Below are positions 1,272-17,692 of a stretch of 20,495 nucleotides of DNA, piece after piece. The first letter of the stretch is position 1; each line of letters starts with the position of its first letter. Origin of the DNA: a virus. The DNA lies in the IMG/VR virus record IMGVR_UViG_3300023184_000616, positions 1-20,495 of that record; one strand, 5' to 3'. The translations under genes and the position numbers were made by a program. The notes beneath the pieces were generated by a model. The model saw nothing but the letters and a program-made list of their open reading frames with translations. It was not told the DNA's origin and did not search any database.

Positions 1272-1572
1272 ATCCGCACTTGTCACGGATATTAGGATTA
1301 TTAAATTCAAAGCCTTCATTAAGGCCTTGACGTACATAATCTACTGTCATGTTTTGTAGATACACGTTGTCTTTTTGATTGACTAGCACAACAAAATCAG
1401 GTTGTGCATAATTTATCACATACTGTTCCGGTGTATATTCTTTAACGTATTCTAACACATAAGCCAGCCCAGAGCAACCTGTAGTTTTAACACCCAGTCG
1501 AATACCAGCATAACCTTTGGCTGTGACGAGTTTTTGTATTTTGTTTCTAGCAGTGTCAGTAAAATTTATCAT
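1249..1572 (-). CDS. A-type iron-sulfur carrier (IscA/ErpA/HesB family)
   Basis: A 107-residue A-type carrier, the usual family length. It would accept Fe-S clusters (or iron) from a scaffold and pass them to apo-enzymes in the cytoplasm. The three family cysteines are all present: C33 in TTGCSGLAY and C99/C101 in CGCGESF at the C-terminus. The middle part (residues 45-85) diverges from bacterial IscA, so I do not assign IscA, SufA or ErpA specifically. The ATG overlaps the stop of the SGNH gene in an ATGA (1569-1572), so translation is probably coupled. Together with iscU upstream it brackets the radical SAM gene, the obvious client in this operon. Confidence 0.85.
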   Translation of the reverse strand: MINFTDTARNKIQKLVTAKGYAGIRLGVKTTGCSGLAYVLEYVKEYTPEQYVINYAQPDFVVLVNQKDNVYLQNMTVDYVRQGLNEGFEFNNPNIRDKCGCGESFRV

Positions 1573-2264
1573 AAGTGCGCAGACAACTTGTTAGATACTA
1601 TTTCAGTAATCTTTCGCCTTCCTAATAGATTAGGGTGTTCATTACATGGTCGAATGAATTGCTTGACTTGGGTATTGTTTGTATGTAACCAATCGTAAAA
1701 ATCAGAATTTTTGTATTCTTGGAATTTAGCAAAATGATCAGGATCAAAAACTTGTAATACACACTGGGTCTTGGGTAAAATCCAATTTTGATCTGGAATT
1801 AGATTCCACAATGGGTGATGTACCTGCTCTGACCAACTTACATTAAACATGTTCAAAAACCAGCAATAAATCGAATTTTGTTGGCAGTATTGATACAGAG
1901 TATAACACACCCATCCCGATTGCCAGCAATCTTGATAATCATTTATGGCCTCAATATTTTTATCCACAAATATGTTGTGCGGTTTACCATCATCATCATA
2001 ATAGAAACGTCTGCTGCCAGCAGTGAGAGAAAACACAGCATGATCGCCTGGTTTTATGTCGCTCTCAAGCAACTGTTGTATGAGATGAGGTTGACTAGAT
2101 CCTGATTTGGAAAAATTCTTGTATGGTAAGTTTAGTCTATCACTTACCATGGCCGGATAACTTTTAATTGACTCATTTGTCATGTACTGTCCGGCTGAAA
2201 ATAATCTTTCAACTTCACATTTTTCGCTTGACCAACTGTCACCAAAAAAATACAAAGTGGTCAT
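1569..2264 (-). CDS. SGNH/GDSL hydrolase-like protein (copy 1)
   Basis: A 231-residue protein with an SGNH-hydrolase layout: block I GDSW at 8-11 (nucleophile S10), block II N50 and SGSS at 54-57, a block III-like strand with T81 and R85, and a C-terminal NEHPN (H210) in the block V place. Enzymes of this fold remove acyl groups or act on esters of carbohydrates and lipids. The substrate cannot be told here. There is no signal peptide, so it is cytoplasmic or virion-borne. It is joined by ATGA overlaps to the radical SAM gene upstream and the Fe-S carrier downstream. Three related proteins occur in this window (14136-14867, 16928-17692, 19994-20495). Base composition is AT-rich compared with the virion genes. 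Confidence 0.7.
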   Translation of the reverse strand: MTTLYFFGDSWSSEKCEVERLFSAGQYMTNESIKSYPAMVSDRLNLPYKNFSKSGSSQPHLIQQLLESDIKPGDHAVFSLTAGSRRFYYDDDGKPHNIFVDKNIEAINDYQDCWQSGWVCYTLYQYCQQNSIYCWFLNMFNVSWSEQVHHPLWNLIPDQNWILPKTQCVLQVFDPDHFAKFQEYKNSDFYDWLHTNNTQVKQFIRPCNEHPNLLGRRKITEIVSNKLSAHL

Positions 2265-3334
2265 AACATCGCTGGACTGTTAGATACTTTGGTGGTTGAA
2301 ATATTTTTTAATATCAATTGTTTGCAACTTTTGACACAGGTAGTGTGCCATTTTCCACTACTGAGACTCTGTTCCAATTGATTATTAAACAAAGGGTTAC
2401 TAAGAATTTTTTCCATACTGTTACTTAGTAAACTTTGATTGTCAAAACCTTGGGATAAATTTTCTAAGTAAGTTTTGTTTTTACCGTCTAATTGTGCATC
2501 AAAATGCATCATGCAACAAGGCAACACATATCCTTGATAGCCAATATAAATCTTACCAATTTTGGCCCAAGAACAGTTCTTATCATGTGCTGTAACGAAT
2601 TTTTTTACAACTTTTGTTGGCAAGGGTAATTGTTTAAATACCACTGTTGGTGGAAGATCTATGTCTGCGGGGGAAATGTAGTGGGTGTGATTTTTTTGTA
2701 TGACCGGCCATTGGGCTAATCCTTTGAAACGATCAATTTGACACTGTGTATAGATTATTTTCTCACAATTTAATTGTTTGGCTTGATTTTCAACTTGTTT
2801 TATCTGATGTTGATTATGTTTAAACAAAATCATTTTCCAAATTGCCCGCCCACCAGATCCAGTGAATGCAGAAAGATTTCTGAGAATAGTTGTATAATTC
2901 AATCCTACTCTATATAAATGATTTGTATCTTGTAAACCGTCAATACTAAAGGTAACAATAAGCCAGGGATATTTTTTTGCAAGATTTTTCCACCAGTTCT
3001 CGTTTCGAATACTACCATTGGTAGTTAAAATCACTGTTGGACGATCTTTTAATGATGTAACTGCATCTAACAAAATCTCTATGTCAGGATTCATCAATGG
3101 ATCTCCTTTATCCCCTGTAATCCTGATCTCTCTCAAAGAAGTCATACGGTCAAGGCATAGATTTTGCAAAATTTTTTGAAAATTCAAATTAGAGAGAGTC
3201 AAATTAGGATGCAAAGTTCCAGTTGACTCAAAAACATCATCCTGAATTATGTTAAATCTAGGACAATGTGGACACTGAGCATTGCAATTAGATGATGGTT
3301 CAAATACTAAAGATTGGATGTCTGACAATTTCAT
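2261..3334 (-). CDS. Radical SAM protein with SPASM-like C-terminus
   Basis: A 357-residue radical SAM enzyme. The cluster motif CNAQCPHC gives C17, C21 and C24, which bind the [4Fe-4S] that cleaves S-adenosylmethionine. GDKGDPL (74-80) sits where the GGE/GEP SAM-binding motif is expected, and TTNGS (104-108) fits the next barrel strand. A second cysteine set, C254, C273, C274, C333 and C337, resembles a SPASM/twitch auxiliary cluster domain. Such enzymes usually modify peptides, proteins or sugars; the target is unknown. It follows iscU with an ATGA overlap (3331-3334) and precedes the SGNH gene with another (2261-2264). A 60-base sample (2401-2460) is 27% G+C against 48% in iscU (3481-3540), suggesting a separate origin. 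Family is confident, substrate is not. Confidence 0.88.
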   Translation of the reverse strand: MKLSDIQSLVFEPSSNCNAQCPHCPRFNIIQDDVFESTGTLHPNLTLSNLNFQKILQNLCLDRMTSLREIRITGDKGDPLMNPDIEILLDAVTSLKDRPTVILTTNGSIRNENWWKNLAKKYPWLIVTFSIDGLQDTNHLYRVGLNYTTILRNLSAFTGSGGRAIWKMILFKHNQHQIKQVENQAKQLNCEKIIYTQCQIDRFKGLAQWPVIQKNHTHYISPADIDLPPTVVFKQLPLPTKVVKKFVTAHDKNCSWAKIGKIYIGYQGYVLPCCMMHFDAQLDGKNKTYLENLSQGFDNQSLLSNSMEKILSNPLFNNQLEQSLSSGKWHTTCVKSCKQLILKNISTTKVSNSPAML

Positions 3335-3711
3335 CTAGCAGTTTTCTGACGATAATCTGCTACTGCGGCTTTGATGGCGTCTTCGGCCAGGATGGAGCAA
3401 TGTATTTTGACTGGCGGGAGAGATAACTCTTCAGCAATCTCGCTATTACGTATGGATCCTGCTTCCTCAAGTGTTCGACCTTTGACCCATTCTGTAACAA
3501 GGCTACTGCTGGCAATGGCCGACCCACAACCGTATGTTTTGAATCTTGCATCTGTTATGATTCCATTTTCTACTTTGATTTGCAATCGCATTACATCCCC
3601 GCAAGCAGGTGCCCCAACCATACCAGTGCCAACGGTATCGTCAGAAGTAGCAAAACTGCCCACATTTCGGGGATTTTCATAGTGATCAATTACTTTGTCT
3701 GAGTATGCCAT
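3331..3711 (-). CDS. iscU: Fe-S cluster assembly scaffold IscU
   Basis: A 126-residue IscU, almost the length of the 128-residue bacterial protein and very close to it throughout. IscU receives sulfur from IscS and iron, builds [2Fe-2S]/[4Fe-4S] clusters and hands them on with the HscA/HscB chaperones. Ligands C37, D39, C62, H104 and C105 are all present. LPPVK (98-102), the peptide bound by HscA, is intact, so the phage protein looks able to use the host machinery. No iscS, hscA, hscB or fdx is in the window. The stop overlaps the radical SAM start (ATGA), and the cupin gene ends 3 nt upstream of its start. The closeness to beta/gammaproteobacterial IscU suggests capture from a host of that kind. 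Confidence 0.95.
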   Translation of the reverse strand: MAYSDKVIDHYENPRNVGSFATSDDTVGTGMVGAPACGDVMRLQIKVENGIITDARFKTYGCGSAIASSSLVTEWVKGRTLEEAGSIRNSEIAEELSLPPVKIHCSILAEDAIKAAVADYRQKTAR

Positions 3712-7287: not shown

Positions 7288-9213
7288 TTAGGCTTTTGGT
7301 GGGTTGTTTCGCTGGATATTTCTAGCAGTAAAATCAAATCGACTCACTGCTTTGCCATAGCCTGCAGGTGTGGCAAACACCCAGCCTTCGTTGCCGGGCA
7401 CTTGGGTGTCTAGTTTGCCCAACAAATCCAGTTTCAAATCATGTAGCAATTCAAACAATACAAAGGCAGCGGCTAATGCGCCTTCGTTGGAACTGGGACT
7501 ACGCAGATATTCAGTAATGTTGCGAAACTTTTGTGGAGTTTGTGTGGCCTTCAAATAATCCATAAAACCTGGCACTAGATCACTAAAATCGCCTGTGTAG
7601 GCAGGATAGTTGGGATTGATACGCCGGTTGATATAATCAACACACAATTTTGCCAGGTCTGTGATTTTCATTGCCCGCAGTTCTGCAGGATTGAAAAGTG
7701 TGTCAATGGCAGGACCCATGGTTCGCAACAGGCTCTTGATTTTTTTAACGTACTGATTTTCAAGTTCTACTGGCTGAGCATAGATGGGTTCAATCAACAA
7801 TAGGCCAGGCACAGGGTTGAATTTGACTCTAGACAATGGTTGTTTGGCGCCGCCTGCATCTTCATACATGGTATGTACTGCCACGCCAATTTCGCTGTTG
7901 GCAATGGCTGTGCCTAGTTTGCTTTTTACAGGAATACGATATTCTACAGTGTTGGGTTTAAACTCCAAATTGCCTGCTACCACAGGAGGTGTTGTGATGT
8001 ACAACAAATCACCCTTGACATAGCCCCTAAAGTTTTTAGGAGTGGCAGCCTCTAAGTATGGCCATATGGCTTGATACACAGGTAATAGTTGTTCCACTCG
8101 ATTGGCCACATTTCCTTTGGCAGCCGCATTGGCATCACGCTGTGCCATGTTGTCTGCAATGGCTTGGGGACTGGTAAACAAACCGTCATAGCCCACTGCT
8201 TCAAATCCTGATCCGTCTGTTAAAACAAATTCACCTGTGTCAGGTTTGCGACCAAATACCACAGCAGGTTTGCCATCCCATTTTACTGATGCAACTTTGC
8301 TGTTTTCTCTAAAGGCGTCCACGATTGCTAGGGCTGTTTTGACGCCGGCTGTGCCATTTCTAAATATGTAATCTTCCAGGTGCTCAATACCCTTGGCCCG
8401 ACCGCCCACAGGTGCCGGTGCGGCAGCAGGTTTGGCTGCTTCTACTAGAGCATACATGCCTTGATTTACAATACGATCACGCAATCGTGCCAGGAAGTAA
8501 ACATCACCGCTTTCTTCTAATTGGGTAGGCTCCTTGAGTCCTTCTCGGGCCAGGTACTCACGGAAGTCTCGGAGTTTGGTGTCACGATCTTTGTCACGTG
8601 CCAGGAATGAGTAGATGCTTTCTACATTGCCCAAATCGCCTTTAGTGGCCTTGGGGCCTAGTATGGCCTTGGCCACTGAGTCCGGATCTTGGCTCACAAG
8701 TTCATTGGTGGCACGACTGAACATACCATTGGCACCTATCTTGAGACCCAGTTGTTTGGCTATCGAACTCATTAGCACAGCACGAACCATTCCTTTGTAG
8801 GAAGATGGTGTGACTTGATTGTAGAAGAATGTGCCCCAGTCCAAGTTAGGGAAAAACATAAAGTCTGTTTGTACATAGCCAAGATCAGGTCTACCTGTAA
8901 TAGGAGTACGTAGATGTACTTCGCCTGACTTCTTGACCCAGGTCTTGGGATCTTGACCATGACTTCTAGCCCAGGCTTCTAGTCGTGCGGCCAGTTCATC
9001 TTTTGATATTTTGCTGGCATCAACTGCTAGGTCCAGGTCACCAGACGTGGCGGCTTTACCAGTAGAGCCCAACCACCGCTCACGCGGAAATTCTAGTCCT
9101 GTGAGTTGTTCTATCCAGGTTACTGTGCTGGGCACGTCGGTTTGATTGATGCGTTGTGTTAATGGTTTTCCGTCAGCATCTTTGAATACATTACCACCTT
9201 CAAACAATTTCAT
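7288..9213 (-). CDS. Two-domain nucleotidyltransferase-like phage protein
   Basis: A 641-residue protein with two separate nucleotidyltransferase signatures. Domain 1 (about 40-250) has LGS at 48-50, then D59-L-D61, and a later strand YVQTDFMFF with D117: the G-S...D-x-D...D pattern of Pol beta-like transferases. An Ala/Pro linker lies at 259-268. Domain 2 starts GIEHLEDYIF and has VKWDGKPAVVFG with K311-x-D-G314, the lysine motif of ligase/capping-type covalent nucleotidyltransferases; GYVKGDLLYI and the VEYRIP strand may be later motifs. The second half resembles a phage family of unknown function (DUF6267-like, from memory). The start MKLFE fits the pentad shared with nearby proteins. It overlaps the upstream gene by an ATGA. 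Enzyme activity is inferred; DNA/RNA repair, tRNA or protein modification are all possible. Confidence 0.75.
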   Translation of the reverse strand: MKLFEGGNVFKDADGKPLTQRINQTDVPSTVTWIEQLTGLEFPRERWLGSTGKAATSGDLDLAVDASKISKDELAARLEAWARSHGQDPKTWVKKSGEVHLRTPITGRPDLGYVQTDFMFFPNLDWGTFFYNQVTPSSYKGMVRAVLMSSIAKQLGLKIGANGMFSRATNELVSQDPDSVAKAILGPKATKGDLGNVESIYSFLARDKDRDTKLRDFREYLAREGLKEPTQLEESGDVYFLARLRDRIVNQGMYALVEAAKPAAAPAPVGGRAKGIEHLEDYIFRNGTAGVKTALAIVDAFRENSKVASVKWDGKPAVVFGRKPDTGEFVLTDGSGFEAVGYDGLFTSPQAIADNMAQRDANAAAKGNVANRVEQLLPVYQAIWPYLEAATPKNFRGYVKGDLLYITTPPVVAGNLEFKPNTVEYRIPVKSKLGTAIANSEIGVAVHTMYEDAGGAKQPLSRVKFNPVPGLLLIEPIYAQPVELENQYVKKIKSLLRTMGPAIDTLFNPAELRAMKITDLAKLCVDYINRRINPNYPAYTGDFSDLVPGFMDYLKATQTPQKFRNITEYLRSPSSNEGALAAAFVLFELLHDLKLDLLGKLDTQVPGNEGWVFATPAGYGKAVSRFDFTARNIQRNNPPKA

Positions 9214-10619: not shown

Positions 10620-11728
10620 GTGCTGTGGGCTATGATCTCATCAACCACTATTTTGTAGTGTGTTTTGTTAATCTTTCCCATTAGTGACCATTTAAGTTTC
10701 TGCTCAATTTGATTTTGAATTTTCAAAAATTTTTCAATAGTCGCATGACTGTTACAGTTTAGAATAGACTTTACTAACCAATCATGATAATTTCTCACAA
10801 TGTTCAAATTGTTTTGTATTCTTTTTTGAATTTGTGGATCTCTGATTAATTCAGTTGCGTGGTTAAACATGTCAGCATTGTCTGACAATATTTTCCAAGT
10901 TCTTGTAACTAAATTAGGCTCGTATTGATTTGAGGTGTTTATTATATCTTTAAAACTATCAAGTCCCATGTTATCCAAAATGTCATAACTACCATAACCA
11001 AATAATATTGGTATAGTGCCTCCATATACAGCCTGTAGATATTTTTCTGAGAGGACACATTGTTTTTCCCAGGTATCTGATTCAAGAACCAAACTGAAAA
11101 CTGACTGGTCTACTAGATATTTTATGTTTTTTTCAAAATTTATAGATGGGACATATTGTACGTTTTTTAAATTAGGCACTGTGCCTTTATATAATTTATC
11201 TAGCATTTTGATAGTTGGCCCAAATGAATATGTCCAATCTACAATATTACCTATTTGTAAAAATTCATTCAAATGATCTAAAAAATCAGATTGAGTCCAA
11301 GACTGAGTATATGTGAATTGAAATTGGCTGCCATAGTTGGCCAACCAACAACTGGCAACGATCCTATGTGGTCGAGGATAGTTTGAACAACAATTAAGTG
11401 CATATTTTTTTTTTGGAAAATCAAGTTTTAGATTTTTAAAAACTTCACTGTATTGTTTTGCTTCCGAATAAAGATATAGTGGCAAGTACAACAATTTTGT
11501 AGTATCAGGCAAACCTACATAACTATCTAAAACAAAAAAATGATCATTTTGAAACCAATCAAATGATTCTAATCGTTGTTTTTCTTCGACCAATAATTTA
11601 TTAGGGTCAATATTTTGATGAGGCACAATGTCATGTAGCCATATTACGGATCTTTTACCTTGAGATGGTATATCTTCAATTTCAATTCGATTCTTAGGAG
11701 AAATGACATTAACGGTGATGTCATCCAT
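10607..11728 (-). CDS. GT10-like glycosyltransferase
   Basis: A 373-residue protein whose middle carries the signature of family GT10 (fucosyltransferase-like): FSLVLES (211-217) and SEKYLQAVYGGTIPILFG (227-244), matching the pattern F-x-L-x-x-E-[NS]...[TS]-E-K...G-x-x-P-I. Such enzymes move a sugar from a nucleotide donor to a glycan. Donor and acceptor are unknown, and fucose specificity should not be assumed. No membrane segment is visible, so it is probably cytoplasmic, acting on lipopolysaccharide precursors or virion proteins. It overlaps the helicase stop by 8 nt. A 60-base sample (11221-11280) is 23% G+C against 42% in the helicase (12241-12300), suggesting later acquisition into the replication operon. 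Confidence 0.7.
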   Translation of the reverse strand: MDDITVNVISPKNRIEIEDIPSQGKRSVIWLHDIVPHQNIDPNKLLVEEKQRLESFDWFQNDHFFVLDSYVGLPDTTKLLYLPLYLYSEAKQYSEVFKNLKLDFPKKKYALNCCSNYPRPHRIVASCWLANYGSQFQFTYTQSWTQSDFLDHLNEFLQIGNIVDWTYSFGPTIKMLDKLYKGTVPNLKNVQYVPSINFEKNIKYLVDQSVFSLVLESDTWEKQCVLSEKYLQAVYGGTIPILFGYGSYDILDNMGLDSFKDIINTSNQYEPNLVTRTWKILSDNADMFNHATELIRDPQIQKRIQNNLNIVRNYHDWLVKSILNCNSHATIEKFLKIQNQIEQKLKWSLMGKINKTHYKIVVDEIIAHSTKIN

Positions 11729-13166
11729 GCTTGATCTGTCCTAGTAGTTGTTTTAGTTTTGCACTTTGTACATCTGCTGTGACTTTGGGTGCTTCTAGAT
11801 CAAAATCTTCCTTGGGCTTGGCACGTTCCCAAGGTGATGTAGAGGATTCACTTTCTTCGGTAGTTTTGACTTGACTCTTGGCCTTGATTGAATCCATGAT
11901 ACTGGGCTTGGCACCACCACGGAAGTTATCTCGCTCGTCACCACCTTCATCTGTAATACGCATGGTTTCGATGTTGTATTCTAAATCAATCTTTTGACCT
12001 ACGCCGGTACTACTACGCGACTTCATGCATTGAATTTGATACTTGCCACGCTCTTTCATGGCACGTGATGTAAAGATACCAAACACGTTGTCTGCTGTGT
12101 TGATCTTAGAGATACCACCTGAAATGTGCGAGTGGTCAAATTCAACTTCTTCCACAGCACTACGATTCAACTGTGACGCTGTTACCATTAACACACTCAG
12201 TTCCTTGGCCAAGTTACGTAGTTCTTCACTCACATACTTATCTTTAACAAACAAGTCATTGGGCGATACTTTTGCACTCACAGGCATCAGCAAGTCCAAA
12301 TAGTCAATCATCACAAAGTCTACCTTCTTACCTGTTTGAATTTGATACTCTTTCAAGTATGCACGAATGTCGTTAATGTTGCTCTGTGCCGGCAAACCTT
12401 TGACCTGATAGTTGCCCGACTTTTTGGCCACTAACTTGACCTTGAGTTCGGTTGTGTCCATGTCTTTGCGAATGTCCTTGGTACTCATGTTTGTTAACAT
12501 AGCATCAGTGCGCAAACTTGTGAGTTCTTCTGAAAGTTCTAGTGTAATGTACACCCCACTCAGTCCTTGTTGTAGCCAGTTCAATGCAATGTTCATCATC
12601 ACAAGTGATTTGCCTGATCCAGAACCTCCGGCAAAAATATTGAGTTCTCCACGACTGAACCCGCCATACAACAATCTGTCCAGTTGTGGCCATCCTGTTG
12701 ACACTTGCCCGCCCGAGTTGAAGTACTTCTCAATGCGAGCCTTAGGATCAGCAAAGTAATCCGTGCCCATGTCTTTGGTGAGTGATATTTGTACTGCATC
12801 TTTGATGAGTTTTTCAACAGGTTCAAATTCGCCTTTTTCCAGCAAGTCTGCTGATTTCAATATGGCACGTTCAAGTTCTTGACGTCGGGTAAATGCTTCA
12901 AACTCGCCCATGAACCAGTCAAAATGTCCTTCATTCAAGTCTGGAACTGGTTGCAATTTAACGCCTGTGGTTGCCGCAATTTGTGTGCGGTCTGGCATTG
13001 TCTTGTGTTTGTCTGAGTGCTCTTTGATAAATTCAGCCGCTGGTCTTAAACTCCGGTCAAAGTTCTGCGGGTTGTAGATATTTTGAACACGCACATAACT
13101 TGTTGCGTCTTCTAGCATCATTTCTAGAAATAGTCTCTGGACGTCAAGTCCGTATTCTTTTAACAA
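11721..13166 (-). CDS. Replicative DNA helicase, DnaB-type (T4 gp41-like)
   Basis: A 481-residue hexameric helicase of the DnaB/RecA fold, close to T4 gp41 (475 aa) in length. It unwinds the fork 5' to 3' on the lagging strand with the primase. Walker A GGSGSGKS is at 180-187, the following E210 sits in VYITLELS, Walker B FVMID at 284-288, and the TASQLNR sensor at 329-335. The start is a TTG (13164-13166) supported by AAGGAAG 7 nt upstream. The first codons lie inside the primase 3' end (23-nt overlap). The Ser/Lys/Glu-rich tail after about 410 is probably flexible and used for partner contact. Primase upstream and helicase together form the phage primosome. Confidence 0.93.
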   Translation of the reverse strand: MLKEYGLDVQRLFLEMMLEDATSYVRVQNIYNPQNFDRSLRPAAEFIKEHSDKHKTMPDRTQIAATTGVKLQPVPDLNEGHFDWFMGEFEAFTRRQELERAILKSADLLEKGEFEPVEKLIKDAVQISLTKDMGTDYFADPKARIEKYFNSGGQVSTGWPQLDRLLYGGFSRGELNIFAGGSGSGKSLVMMNIALNWLQQGLSGVYITLELSEELTSLRTDAMLTNMSTKDIRKDMDTTELKVKLVAKKSGNYQVKGLPAQSNINDIRAYLKEYQIQTGKKVDFVMIDYLDLLMPVSAKVSPNDLFVKDKYVSEELRNLAKELSVLMVTASQLNRSAVEEVEFDHSHISGGISKINTADNVFGIFTSRAMKERGKYQIQCMKSRSSTGVGQKIDLEYNIETMRITDEGGDERDNFRGGAKPSIMDSIKAKSQVKTTEESESSTSPWERAKPKEDFDLEAPKVTADVQSAKLKQLLGQIKHG

Positions 13167-14133
13167 GTTGCTTCTTCCTTATTTCAATTTTAATCTTACT
13201 GACTTCTCTTGCCTGCATTATAGTTAGCAAGGCCCCCAATCGTCCTAGTTTTATCACAGCGTCGTTGACATCTTTGCAACCCTCAGGCCACTCAGGTATG
13301 CTCACTGCCCAACCCAGTTCCACAGCACGGTCAATCAGTTCCACACCTGCGATGTCTTGATCGGGTACCACAGTTACCTCACGCCCAAGACTGCGTATCA
13401 ATCTTGCTTGACTATCGCTGATGGTGTTGTGCATCACAGCAAGTCCACCAATTGAGAGTGCATCAAAGATGCCTTCCATCACCAACACATGTTGCCAGTT
13501 GGCATGTTGCAAGTCTGTGCCAAACACATAACCGGGTTGTGAGTGATTGATGTACCGGGGCTGTTTGTCATCCAAAAACCTAGCACACCAACCCACCACC
13601 TTGTTATCGTATGTGAACGGCACCAACACAAACGGTCGAACCCAATGAATGCCGTCATTCTTAATGGCAGTCATTATGGGAAAGTCTTCAGGTACTCCAC
13701 GTCGACGAATGTAATCCCAGTATAGTGGAAACTCTGGCGTGACCACTTCGGCAAATGGCGGTAGGTCATCATATTCTTCAAATTTGATATCACTGAGTGC
13801 ATTGAATATTCGTTGACGATCTTCCAGTATGCCGTGTATGCTACGGTGCCGTAGACTTTCAAGATTGAGCATGTCAATCTCATTTTCTGGCACGCCCATC
13901 CATCCCAGTAATCTTCGGGCCTTGAAGCCCACTGTGCGCCCTAGTATGAAACTGGCTGTGTACGAGCAGTTGAAACAGTGATAACTCCATCCTGCTTCGG
14001 TAACTTTGATGCCACCGCGACCACGACGATCTTGTGAGTTGCTGTTGTGAGTGCAACACACTGCATTGAAACTAATCCAACCTTGTGGACTGGGTTTTCG
14101 TTTCGCAGGTAGGTACTGAAGTATATCAAGCAT
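13144..14133 (-). CDS. DNA primase (T4 gp61-like)
   Basis: A 329-residue primase, near T4 gp61 (342 aa). It makes RNA primers for lagging-strand synthesis. The N-terminal zinc ribbon uses C26/C27, H29 and C53-x2-C56 (HCFNC). The Toprim core shows VMEGIFDAL with E220 and VVPDQDIAG with D258-x-D260, which bind the catalytic metals. The 3' end overlaps the helicase by 23 nt, which fits their joint action. It starts 2 nt after the SGNH gene ends. All expected motifs are intact. Confidence 0.92.
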   Translation of the reverse strand: MLDILQYLPAKRKPSPQGWISFNAVCCTHNSNSQDRRGRGGIKVTEAGWSYHCFNCSYTASFILGRTVGFKARRLLGWMGVPENEIDMLNLESLRHRSIHGILEDRQRIFNALSDIKFEEYDDLPPFAEVVTPEFPLYWDYIRRRGVPEDFPIMTAIKNDGIHWVRPFVLVPFTYDNKVVGWCARFLDDKQPRYINHSQPGYVFGTDLQHANWQHVLVMEGIFDALSIGGLAVMHNTISDSQARLIRSLGREVTVVPDQDIAGVELIDRAVELGWAVSIPEWPEGCKDVNDAVIKLGRLGALLTIMQAREVSKIKIEIRKKQLVKRIRT

Positions 14134-14135
14134 TG

Positions 14136-14867
14136 CTACATTGTAGCAGAATCTATGGTCAAAATCAACTTGTCAGCAATCATTCGATGCCCAATTTCGT
14201 TAGGATGACCTCCGGGCATGATCAGTTCTCGATTTTGATTATTTGGGTGGTCACGAAACCACATAGTAGTTGAAAAGCCAGGCCAAATCTCAGTAGGAAG
14301 GTCTAGTTGATTGTCGGCTGGCATGATATGAAACTGCATTACAGTTATATTTTTCCTGGCTGCCACACCGTCGAAAAACAACAAAGTCTGCATATGATTG
14401 AGCCTAGCCAACTCAGCACAATTGGTCAATACCAACTGTTGTTTGACCATAGTCCTAAATTCTTCTGGCACAACACTTGATCCATACTGTACCCAAGTTG
14501 AGTGTATGAACTTGTTCCAAGGAGGATCATTGGCGTAACTCTGATGATTAGGATTGTAAAAACTCAATCTATCAGAATCGGTATGTCCTACTATAACCAA
14601 GCAGTCTTCAGGACAGGGCTCGTGTTCCAACCACCAAAGAAAAGTCCATATAGAACTTTGCATGCTGCCGCCGGCTATGCCAAAATTTTCTACAGAAACC
14701 TTGTAATGTTGTCCGACCAATCCTAAAAAGTTATGACTCTTACGGTATTGATCGTTTTGGTGCCAACAACTATGCGCATCTGGGTGCTGTTGGATCAGCA
14801 CAGGATCCAACAACTCATCTCCGTACATCCATGAATCACCAAACCCAACTATTTTTTTAAAAGTCAT
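14136..14867 (-). CDS. SGNH/GDSL hydrolase-like protein (copy 2)
   Basis: A 243-residue protein and the clearest SGNH of the window. Block I GDSW is at 10-13, block II NFGIAGGS at 61-68, block III-like VGHTDSDR at 93-100, and block V GGHPN with H221 near the C-terminus. Ser12 and His221 are the likely catalytic pair. Enzymes of this fold hydrolyse esters, often sugar O-acetyl groups, which would suit host-surface glycan changes; no substrate can be read from sequence. No signal peptide. It overlaps the structural gene upstream by an ATGA and abuts primase downstream, so it rides in the replication operon. A 60-base sample (14521-14580) is 38% G+C, closer to backbone genes than copies 1 and 3. 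Confidence 0.75.
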   Translation of the reverse strand: MTFKKIVGFGDSWMYGDELLDPVLIQQHPDAHSCWHQNDQYRKSHNFLGLVGQHYKVSVENFGIAGGSMQSSIWTFLWWLEHEPCPEDCLVIVGHTDSDRLSFYNPNHQSYANDPPWNKFIHSTWVQYGSSVVPEEFRTMVKQQLVLTNCAELARLNHMQTLLFFDGVAARKNITVMQFHIMPADNQLDLPTEIWPGFSTTMWFRDHPNNQNRELIMPGGHPNEIGHRMIADKLILTIDSATM

Positions 14868-16009: not shown

Positions 16010-16387
16010 ATGGGCAGTGATTTGTTTCAAAAACTAGCAGAAAAATATCCATTTATAACCTTGTGCATCTACGCCAGCAATGAATATGTGGGCATAGTGC
16101 AAAATCGAGATGACGCTATCACTACCATCTACGACTTTGGAGCAATACAAGATCAAGAATCAAAGCGCAGATTTATAGACCTAGCCAACACTTGGTGGTG
16201 GGAAAGCAATAGAAGTATACCTATCAACATATTCCTGCGTGGAGAGTGGGATCTGTTTCGTCCTACGTTGAGAACATTTGCCAACAAAGACTTAGAAATC
16301 TTGCACGGCCCTGTGTGCAGTTTGAATGACATTGCTCGCAAGAAGAGCAAAAGAAAGAGTATTACACTTGTTCGTCGGGTTGATTAA
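16010..16387 (+). CDS. Conserved unknown phage protein, only plus-strand gene
   Basis: A 125-residue protein starting MGSDLFQKLAEKYPFITLC. It has mixed alpha/beta character, with TWWWESNRSIPINIFLRG at 61-78 and a basic end (ARKKSKRKSITLVRRVD). I recall similar proteins in T4-like marine phages, with no function assigned. No Cys/His metal site and no membrane helix. It has no clear Shine-Dalgarno, but a perfect TATAAATA lies 16 nt upstream. The last 26 nt overlap the 3' end of the convergent mini-DnaE gene, so simultaneous transcription of the two would collide or form antisense RNA. The basic tail could contact nucleic acid. Confidence 0.75.
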   Translation: MGSDLFQKLAEKYPFITLCIYASNEYVGIVQNRDDAITTIYDFGAIQDQESKRRFIDLANTWWWESNRSIPINIFLRGEWDLFRPTLRTFANKDLEILHGPVCSLNDIARKKSKRKSITLVRRVD

Positions 16388-16931
16388 TCAGATTCATATG
16401 CAAGGACACTAGAGCCGCATAAGAAATACTATGACTCTTTTTGAATGTATAGCCTTTTGAGTCATCTCCGTTCCATACTGACGCAAATACTTCTGTCCAT
16501 GGTTTCTTTTGTAAATGTGCCTTGCCCGGACGAATAATAGATATAAATGCCGCCATTCTAGGTATCGAATCTGGCTTCATGTGTGCCAAAAGGTCAGTGT
16601 AATTCCCTACGTGTACAAGTTGCCTTGCCCACTCCGGATCAGACCACAGTCGTTGCCAAGGTGGTGTTGCGGTCAACATTGATTCATAGTGTGCAGGATC
16701 CTTTATCAGACTGTACACACTCATGTTCAAAAAGTCCAATTTGAAGTAACCGCGCTGTTCAGCAGTTTCATAATCCAATGCCGCACAGCGGTTAATGGGA
16801 TCTTGTGGTATGTCTGTGACATAGATCCCTGAGTTGTGTTTTTGCCCATTGCTTTGTCGTGCCGGAGTATGCTGAATTAATTTCAGCACCAACTCTCTGT
16901 TACCAAAATCTATGTCAATATCTGCGCTCAT
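16362..16931 (-). CDS. Miniature DnaE-like (family C polymerase palm) protein
   Basis: A 189-residue protein with parts of the bacterial replicative polymerase DnaE in the right order. ADIDIDF (3-9) matches the PDxDxDF palm motif with two catalytic Asp. KHNSGIYVTDIP (31-42) matches the HxAGVVI strand. RGYFKLDFLN (60-69) matches the vKfDFLGL strand with the third Asp (D66). MKPDSIPRMAAF then IIRPG (118-136) matches KPxxFeDLxAxxALyRPG. FKKSHSISYA (163-172) matches FNKSHAxAYA. The PHP domain, most of the fingers and the OB/tau-binding region are absent. It overlaps the SGNH gene by an ATGA. Similar short proteins exist in T4-like marine phages as I recall, without a known role. The homology is from motif reading; activity is unknown. 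Confidence 0.7.
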   Translation of the reverse strand: MSADIDIDFGNRELVLKLIQHTPARQSNGQKHNSGIYVTDIPQDPINRCAALDYETAEQRGYFKLDFLNMSVYSLIKDPAHYESMLTATPPWQRLWSDPEWARQLVHVGNYTDLLAHMKPDSIPRMAAFISIIRPGKAHLQKKPWTEVFASVWNGDDSKGYTFKKSHSISYAALVSLHMNLINQPDEQV

Positions 16932-17692
16932 ATTTTTTGTAAATGTGGTATAAGAATTTGTTCTGCAAATGCCCTATGTGCGTCTGGCCCGTAGTGTCCA
17001 ATGTTGGGCCGATCTTTGTAATCTAATGGATCAAAACCTTGTTGGTGACACCAACTTGCAAAACCAAATGTCTCAAAATCAAAAAAGTTCTCGTTGTTGA
17101 GATTCGATTTAAAAAAATCTAATAGATATTCTTGTTGCAATTTTTCTGCCTTTGGTCCTTGAAACATCAAAAACTGTATATTCAGTTGATTCATCAAGGA
17201 TTGAAACATCAAACAATCGCACAATAAATTTGTTCTTTCTGCATATGGACTGTAAAAGTAAGCACGACCTTTGCTGTAACTGTCAAAAAACTCTTGGTCA
17301 ATTCTACTCTTGGGTCCAGTTGGATCGATATCTTTGTTTGCCAACAGTAGTTCGCGCCAATTTACTTCTCTTGAAAACAAGTGCGTTCGAAAGTTTGACT
17401 CAACCACAGTCTGTGGTACAATGTTATCTATCCAAATCTCACTTCGAAGTTCAAAAGACAAACTTATTAATGCAATTATTTTTTGATCGGGATTTAACTT
17501 TCTTTGATGCACTAAATCATGAATGCTGGTTCTTATGATGCGTCTATTACAACTGCCACGTATTGCATTGTTGATAGTAAATCCTTGTAAATATTGACCA
17601 ATCACATGTGCATATGTTTTATTTTTCAATGTTGGGTGATAGTTTTCATCACTGTAACTATCGCCATTGCAGTAGATCAATGGATGTTGCAT
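16928..17692 (-). CDS. SGNH/GDSL hydrolase-like protein (copy 3)
   Basis: A 254-residue protein with NGDSY at 9-13 (block I), N42 and RGSCN at 45-49 (block II), a strand IIALISLSFELR in the block III place, and GHYGPDAHRAFAEQ near the end with H233 and H239 as block V candidates. It is more diverged than copy 2: the usual HPN is replaced, so activity is less certain. It may be a non-catalytic binding protein. No signal peptide. The ATG shares a base with the upstream stop (TAATG), and the stop overlaps the mini-DnaE start (ATGA). A 60-base sample (17461-17520) is 25% G+C, much lower than backbone genes. Confidence 0.65.
   Translation of the reverse strand: MQHPLIYCNGDSYSDENYHPTLKNKTYAHVIGQYLQGFTINNAIRGSCNRRIIRTSIHDLVHQRKLNPDQKIIALISLSFELRSEIWIDNIVPQTVVESNFRTHLFSREVNWRELLLANKDIDPTGPKSRIDQEFFDSYSKGRAYFYSPYAERTNLLCDCLMFQSLMNQLNIQFLMFQGPKAEKLQQEYLLDFFKSNLNNENFFDFETFGFASWCHQQGFDPLDYKDRPNIGHYGPDAHRAFAEQILIPHLQKI

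Follow-up and report, generated by a model that had tools for sequence, protein, structure and literature searches.

A split minimal Pol III alpha was predicted in the group 2.2 jumbo phages by Iyer et al. 2021, who suggested a role in one-strand synthesis or repair and a resemblance to an ancestral Pol III (PMC7824862). The sequence-only reading of the locus treated here had found no described function for its protein; that statement needs to be amended, as the split pair had been described and named (PMC7824862), and it holds only in that no experimental follow-up was found in the open literature. In cyanobacteria, DnaE is likewise encoded by two genes, but there a split intein rejoins full-size halves, whereas the junction of the phage pieces carries no extra sequence and, therefore, no splicing element. 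A split-intein origin of the phage break was considered and rejected, since neither piece has an extra domain at the junction. The complete family C enzymes are a further point of comparison. The active-site aspartates of DnaE are D401, D403 and D555, H760 has been modelled as a steric gate (PMC8485763), and the thumb of the E. coli enzyme comprises residues 433-509 (PMC4703070). Palm fold and aspartate triad are common to the phage protein and DnaE/PolC (E. coli 2hnh, T. aquaticus 3e0d). Unlike these, the predicted phage enzyme consists of two chains and is devoid of the PHP domain (1-280), the thumb, the fingers at ~642-742 and the HhH, OB, clamp and tau parts.

The window, which is the whole 20,495-base (20-kb) viral genome fragment that was analysed, encodes a 189-aa protein (C) that is a further member of the split Pol III alpha of Iyer et al., already described in jumbo phages. 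The family is the same (PHROG 11778 for C, PHROG 11127 for the N-terminal piece, N), and the relatives examined here also show the same division, with one piece (N) for NTP binding, another (C) for metal and DNA binding, and the two genes far apart. The company kept by that system, a family B polymerase, a T4-type helicase, a primase and a clamp loader, is shared by the relatives examined here. Unlike the jumbo-phage members, to which it is 33-40% identical (phage collection), the window protein comes from a large, mostly environmental lineage. What is new is that relatives from the environment number in the hundreds, that both halves occur in a complete non-jumbo phage of 141 kb, and that the breakpoint is located exactly and the thumb seen to be missing. 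We consider it likely that this protein forms the C-terminal subunit of a minimal family C DNA polymerase made of two pieces. Homology, fold, conserved residues, purifying selection, the joint occurrence of the pieces, their exact fit and the usual company of a family B polymerase are shown below, and from these we infer docking, catalysis and role. Coordinates are collected in Table 1.

Table 1. Features of the C locus in the window, with residue equivalents in E. coli DnaE numbering and conservation among 66 C sequences
Feature	Position	Strand	Remarks
DnaB-like (gp41-type) replicative helicase	11721..13166	minus	PHROG 19, PF03796; same module as C
Toprim (DnaG/gp61-like) primase	13144..14133	minus	PHROG 47, PF13155; same module as C
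Convergent 125-aa gene, function not assigned	16010..16387	plus	PHROG 11637; overlaps C gene 3' end by 26 bp
Probable C-terminal (metal- and DNA-binding) subunit gene of a split minimal Pol III alpha	16362..16931	minus	189 aa, PHROG 11778
FKKSHSISY, residues 163-171 = F756-Y764, including H167 = H760 (steric-gate residue)	16419..16445	minus	H167 invariant
R134-P135 = R639-P640 of the RPG motif	16527..16532	minus	invariant
K64-L-D66 = K553, D555 (D66 = third catalytic aspartate)	16734..16742	minus	K64, D66 invariant
H32 = H511 (HAGGVVI motif)	16836..16838	minus	invariant 66/66
DIDID motif, D4/D6/D8 = D401/D403/D405, metal-binding palm strand	16908..16922	minus	invariant 66/66
254-aa ORF upstream of C gene	16928..17692	minus	stop overlaps C start (ATGA)

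The C protein and its catalytic residues

The 189-aa ORF, for which the sequence-only reading gave no strand, lies on the minus strand; it is real and encodes a true family C (DnaE/PolC) core, and its motif set is not a product of chance. The five motifs named in that reading are all present in the right order, namely ADIDIDF (residues 3-9), HNSGIYV (32-38), FKLDFLN (63-69), KP...IIRPG (119-136) and FKKSHSISYA (163-172). Residues 3-183 match PHROG 11778, annotated as 'DNA polymerase' (E=1.9e-48), and there is a further match to PHROG 405, which is DnaE-like (E=1.9e-7). Searches of Pfam and the PDB with the window protein as a single sequence gave no match, and the C-family profile did not recover DnaE from the PDB sequences; the link to DnaE is therefore carried by the PHROGs, by profile-profile comparison and by structure. 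In an hhalign comparison of the C family (66 relatives) with the aligned palms of eleven family C enzymes, E. coli DnaE among them, the score was 46.9, as opposed to 24.0 for the best of 150 column-shuffled controls; with a smaller alignment the probability was 98.3. A significant profile match to family C, for which the sequence-only reading had proposed to search, was thus found.

The structural evidence points the same way. The AlphaFold model of C (mean pLDDT 92.2, pTM 0.81) has the Pol beta-type palm with its three catalytic aspartates, and the 14 top PDB matches found by Foldseek are DnaE chains (E 8e-4 to 0.09). With VIA-align, residues 1-189 of the model superpose on residues 460-842 of T. 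aquaticus DnaE (3e0d; Z 9.4, 187 residues), and the model aligns end to end with residues 399-784 of E. coli DnaE (Z 8.0) and with residues 969-1304 of PolC (Z 7.4). Each of the top 14 chains in this ranking belongs to DnaE or PolC, and the first unrelated chain follows at Z 3.3, so that the predicted fold is that of a family C palm, as had been expected, with strong matches to family C only.

Residue conservation was examined in 66 C and 63 N sequences. In addition to the triad, the equivalents of DnaE H511, K553, R639, K758 and H760 are kept in C. Y171, corresponding to Y764, is identical in 66/66 sequences; at E58 (E547) there are 64 Glu and 2 Asp, and at K165 (K758) there are 57 Lys, 8 Arg and 1 Gln. 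The earlier assignment of the palm aspartates was correct for the third, D66 (D555), but not for the metal-binding pair, which had been given as D6/D8 and is D4/D6 (D401/D403), with D8 corresponding to D405. The C gene is under strong purifying selection, with dN/dS values of 0.05-0.13 against six relatives, for four of which dS is high. These values exclude decay and with it the relic that had been entertained as one explanation. A length of about one sixth that of DnaE is what a decaying fragment of a captured host dnaE would have, and yet such an origin has practically no chance of being correct: apart from the selection data, which refute it, there are hundreds of intact relatives of C (484 in the first scan of IMG/VR, together with 63 phage records), both pieces of the polymerase have uniform ends, and C is modelled at high confidence as a compact fold.

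What has been lost is as clear as what has been kept. The distance from D4 to H32 is 28 residues in C versus 110 in E. coli DnaE, a shortening which means that the thumb is gone. The distance from R134 to F163 is 29 residues versus 117, and the region with R709/R710 is deleted. C also lacks the PHP domain, the remainder of the fingers and the C-terminal tail; the single chain in which complete DnaE and PolC unite PHP domain, thumb and full fingers thus has no counterpart in C. The description of the protein as a family C palm without PHP or full fingers was therefore apt, as the PHP domain is absent and much of the fingers deleted while the catalytic residues are kept.

The N-terminal piece and the break in the palm

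When complete relatives were searched with family C profiles, each of them proved to have another short ORF, which matches PF07733. It corresponds to positions ~361-436 of PHROG 405, immediately upstream of the DIDIDF motif. These N proteins make up PHROG 11127 (PF07733) and are ~120-180 aa long as annotated, typically ~170 aa. For the N family, hhalign gave a score of 88.6, with a maximum of 24.8 among the shuffled controls. The N model (pLDDT 93.5) aligns through residues 76-171 with residues 280-394 of E. coli DnaE (Z ~10), and the ~75 N-terminal residues have no aligned counterpart in the DnaE matches. The GRGSS loop (R362, S364) is invariant in the 63 N sequences; R390 of DnaE is replaced by a conserved Glu/Asp, and Y340 is not kept, two differences that weigh against the two-piece polymerase.

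The two pieces fit end to end. N proteins terminate at EFLK/EFLR or a close variant (e.g. EFFKGE), which corresponds to DnaE 390-393, C begins a few residues before DIDIDF, and the ends of both are uniform. N supplies the missing GRGS nucleotide-binding loop (DnaE ~280-394) and ends exactly where C starts. The chain break falls in a linker of ~6 residues, from DnaE ~394 to 400, so that N and C should dock as one palm with one active site. The beta-strands of the C palm would supply the metal-binding aspartates D4, D6 and D66 together with K64, the KxH helix of C (K165, H167) would contact the incoming nucleotide, and N would contribute the palm helices and, for holding the triphosphate of the dNTP, the GRGSSxAS loop. 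Judged from the alignments and models, N and C together would form a family C active site of ~360 aa without PHP, thumb or clamp-binding parts.

With a complementary half that carries the GRGS loop encoded in the same genome (the counts are given below), neither of the two other functions that had been suggested for C on its own is supported: a stand-alone decoy is set aside on this ground, and a stand-alone small nucleotidyltransferase lacks support for the same reason. A wider form of the decoy idea would have a non-catalytic protein, alone or with N, bind the host Pol III, the clamp or the phage family B polymerase without any DNA synthesis. The missing thumb, PHP domain and part of the fingers would suit such a regulator, as would the acidic residue at the position of R390, but we regard it as decidedly unlikely. 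A decoy has no need for D4/D6/D66, K64 and H167 plus a GRGS loop in a second protein, whereas phages of great diversity all keep the metal-binding residues and the key nucleotide-binding ones without change. Moreover, it is precisely the parts with which DnaE binds clamp and tau that are absent, and the hosts of C-bearing phages extend from Agrobacterium and Sinorhizobium to Vibrio, Pseudomonas and E. coli.

In three other families, PHROG 13169, 7513 and 11165, a match to the GRGS piece lies close to the end of proteins of ~460 aa or close to the beginning of one of 782 aa. These matches may hint at further family C architectures that are split or trimmed at the same place.

Distribution of the two halves

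Almost every sufficiently long C-bearing related genome also encodes N. The 60 listed C phage records include 56 that are also among the 60 listed N records, and N was found by other searches in Vibrio 2.275 and Slicko01, which brings the count to 58/60 with the other two records left out of further checking. In IMG/VR, 19 long contigs carry both genes. Among contigs picked for carrying C, N is present in all five of at least 86 kb and in none of the four of at most 62 kb. The Alishewanella phage Slicko01 has a complete circular genome of 141 kb with both halves and a clamp-loader gene between them; the split polymerase is therefore not confined to jumbo phages, and Slicko01 offers a conveniently small model. 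A family B polymerase accompanies the pair in 5/5 named phages, in Slicko01 and in 10/13 long contigs with both halves.

The N and C genes are never adjacent in our data, which is unusual for obligate partners: they are 31 kb apart in PBECO4, 11 kb apart in Slicko01 and at least 11 kb apart wherever both could be placed. A mirror-tree comparison of N and C over 24 genomes gave r 0.90, a value that we do not take to indicate binding, since common descent by itself also yields high values.

The window's own lineage is the place where the pairing is least visible, a point against the two-piece reading. Neither an N partner nor a main polymerase is seen in the 20-kb window, N was not found in 40 C-bearing contigs of the lineage, which are mostly short (the longest is 130 kb), and a six-frame profile search for N in the 130-kb and 48-kb relatives found none. 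These results are what one would see if N had been lost and C were an independent enzyme, acting alone or paired with the N-terminal region of host DnaE. We think this very unlikely. Most contigs of the lineage are short, and the 130-kb one is itself incomplete, as no family A or B polymerase was detected in this longest close relative; nearly everywhere else, long C genomes have N as well. The search for the lineage's N also used tetranucleotide matching of N contigs, and the sole lead overall is the 35-kb contig L379, which carries N, GroES and a clamp loader and has three genes in common with the end of the 130-kb contig (71-85% protein identity). This overlap is a hint, not proof, of the lineage's N. 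The N families anchored on L133 and L164 were also followed, but the C genes found to accompany N of the L164 type share just ~38% identity with the window protein.

Gene neighbourhood and proposed role

In most genomes examined, the order of genes is C, a convergent ~120-aa gene of PHROG 11637, primase and DnaB-type helicase, and the window keeps this order with two extra genes in between. The primase and helicase beside the C gene are of T4 type, which bears out the T4-type replication context that had been recognised from the letters. The usual neighbours of the N gene are a GroES-like gene and the clamp loader.

As there is no PHP, thumb, clamp-binding or OB region, the polymerase formed by N and C would be expected to perform short-range, non-processive (distributive), partner-dependent synthesis. 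The dependence might be on the primase-helicase, whose genes adjoin C, and a role beside the family B replicase could be primer extension at the primase-helicase, gap filling or recombination-linked repair. In its fullest form the proposal is that N and C make up an active, thumb-less family C polymerase of ~360 residues, among the smallest known, which works at T4-type family B forks in a large part of the T4-like phages, whether jumbo or not, and has a task of its own there (e.g. primer extension or recombination-linked gap filling). This we put forward tentatively, as a statement with somewhat less than an even chance of being right.

Without the thumb and the R709/R710 region, the complex might have a poor hold on DNA, or the reaction it catalyses might be a different nucleotidyl transfer; this, too, weighs against the polymerase reading. 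The deleted thumb, which in DnaE puts a loop into the DNA duplex, and the small total size of N and C are what an enzyme of template-independent terminal transfer, or of RNA or protein nucleotidylation, might display, and family C palms have the Pol beta-type nucleotidyltransferase fold (PMC7824862). That the pair acts on such a substrate is nevertheless unlikely, given that the KSH helix, which contacts template and nucleotide, the RPG region and the H760 steric gate against ribonucleotides are retained, and that C adjoins the primase and helicase and N lies near the clamp loader.

If the split polymerase is active, it would be a naturally divided, near-minimal family C enzyme from which one could learn which parts of a replicase catalysis needs, and in many phages one replication system would combine two polymerases, one of bacterial type and one of T4 type. 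Should it be inactive, some other reason must be sought for an active site so strictly conserved in hundreds of phages. Its presence in a 141-kb phage and in abundant environmental phages means that the split polymerase is no oddity of jumbo phages.

Several features around the C gene deserve mention in their own right. The PHROG 11637 gene is convergent with the C gene in 134/164 loci with room for its detection, and the two overlap in phages from those of Agrobacterium to those of E. coli. Its protein, which contains a WWWE/QS-R motif and ends in a basic tail, is a possible third subunit or regulator. On the other side, the ATGA overlap with the 254-aa ORF suggests translational coupling of that ORF and the C gene. 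A DnaQ-type 3'-5' exonuclease (RNase_T) is encoded upstream of C, within its module, in PBECO4 (L085:6805-7620) and Vibrio phage 2.275 (L086:6562-7365), and could be a proofreading partner.

Three proteins of similar size that start with GDSW/GDSY, a motif typical of SGNH hydrolases, are encoded on the minus strand of the window (1569-2264, 14136-14867 and 16928-17692); Pfam gave no match for them except a weak one to DUF6071 for the last. The window also contains an iron-sulphur cassette (3331-3711, 1249-1572 and 2261-3334, all on the minus strand) that comprises an IscU/NifU-type scaffold (E 8e-53), an IscA-type protein (E 6e-20) and a member of the radical SAM proteins that bears a SPASM-like domain. 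Lastly, a 641-aa protein with a C-terminal DUF6267 domain (7288-9213, minus strand) shares ~90% identity with its counterparts in the two long relatives that are closest.
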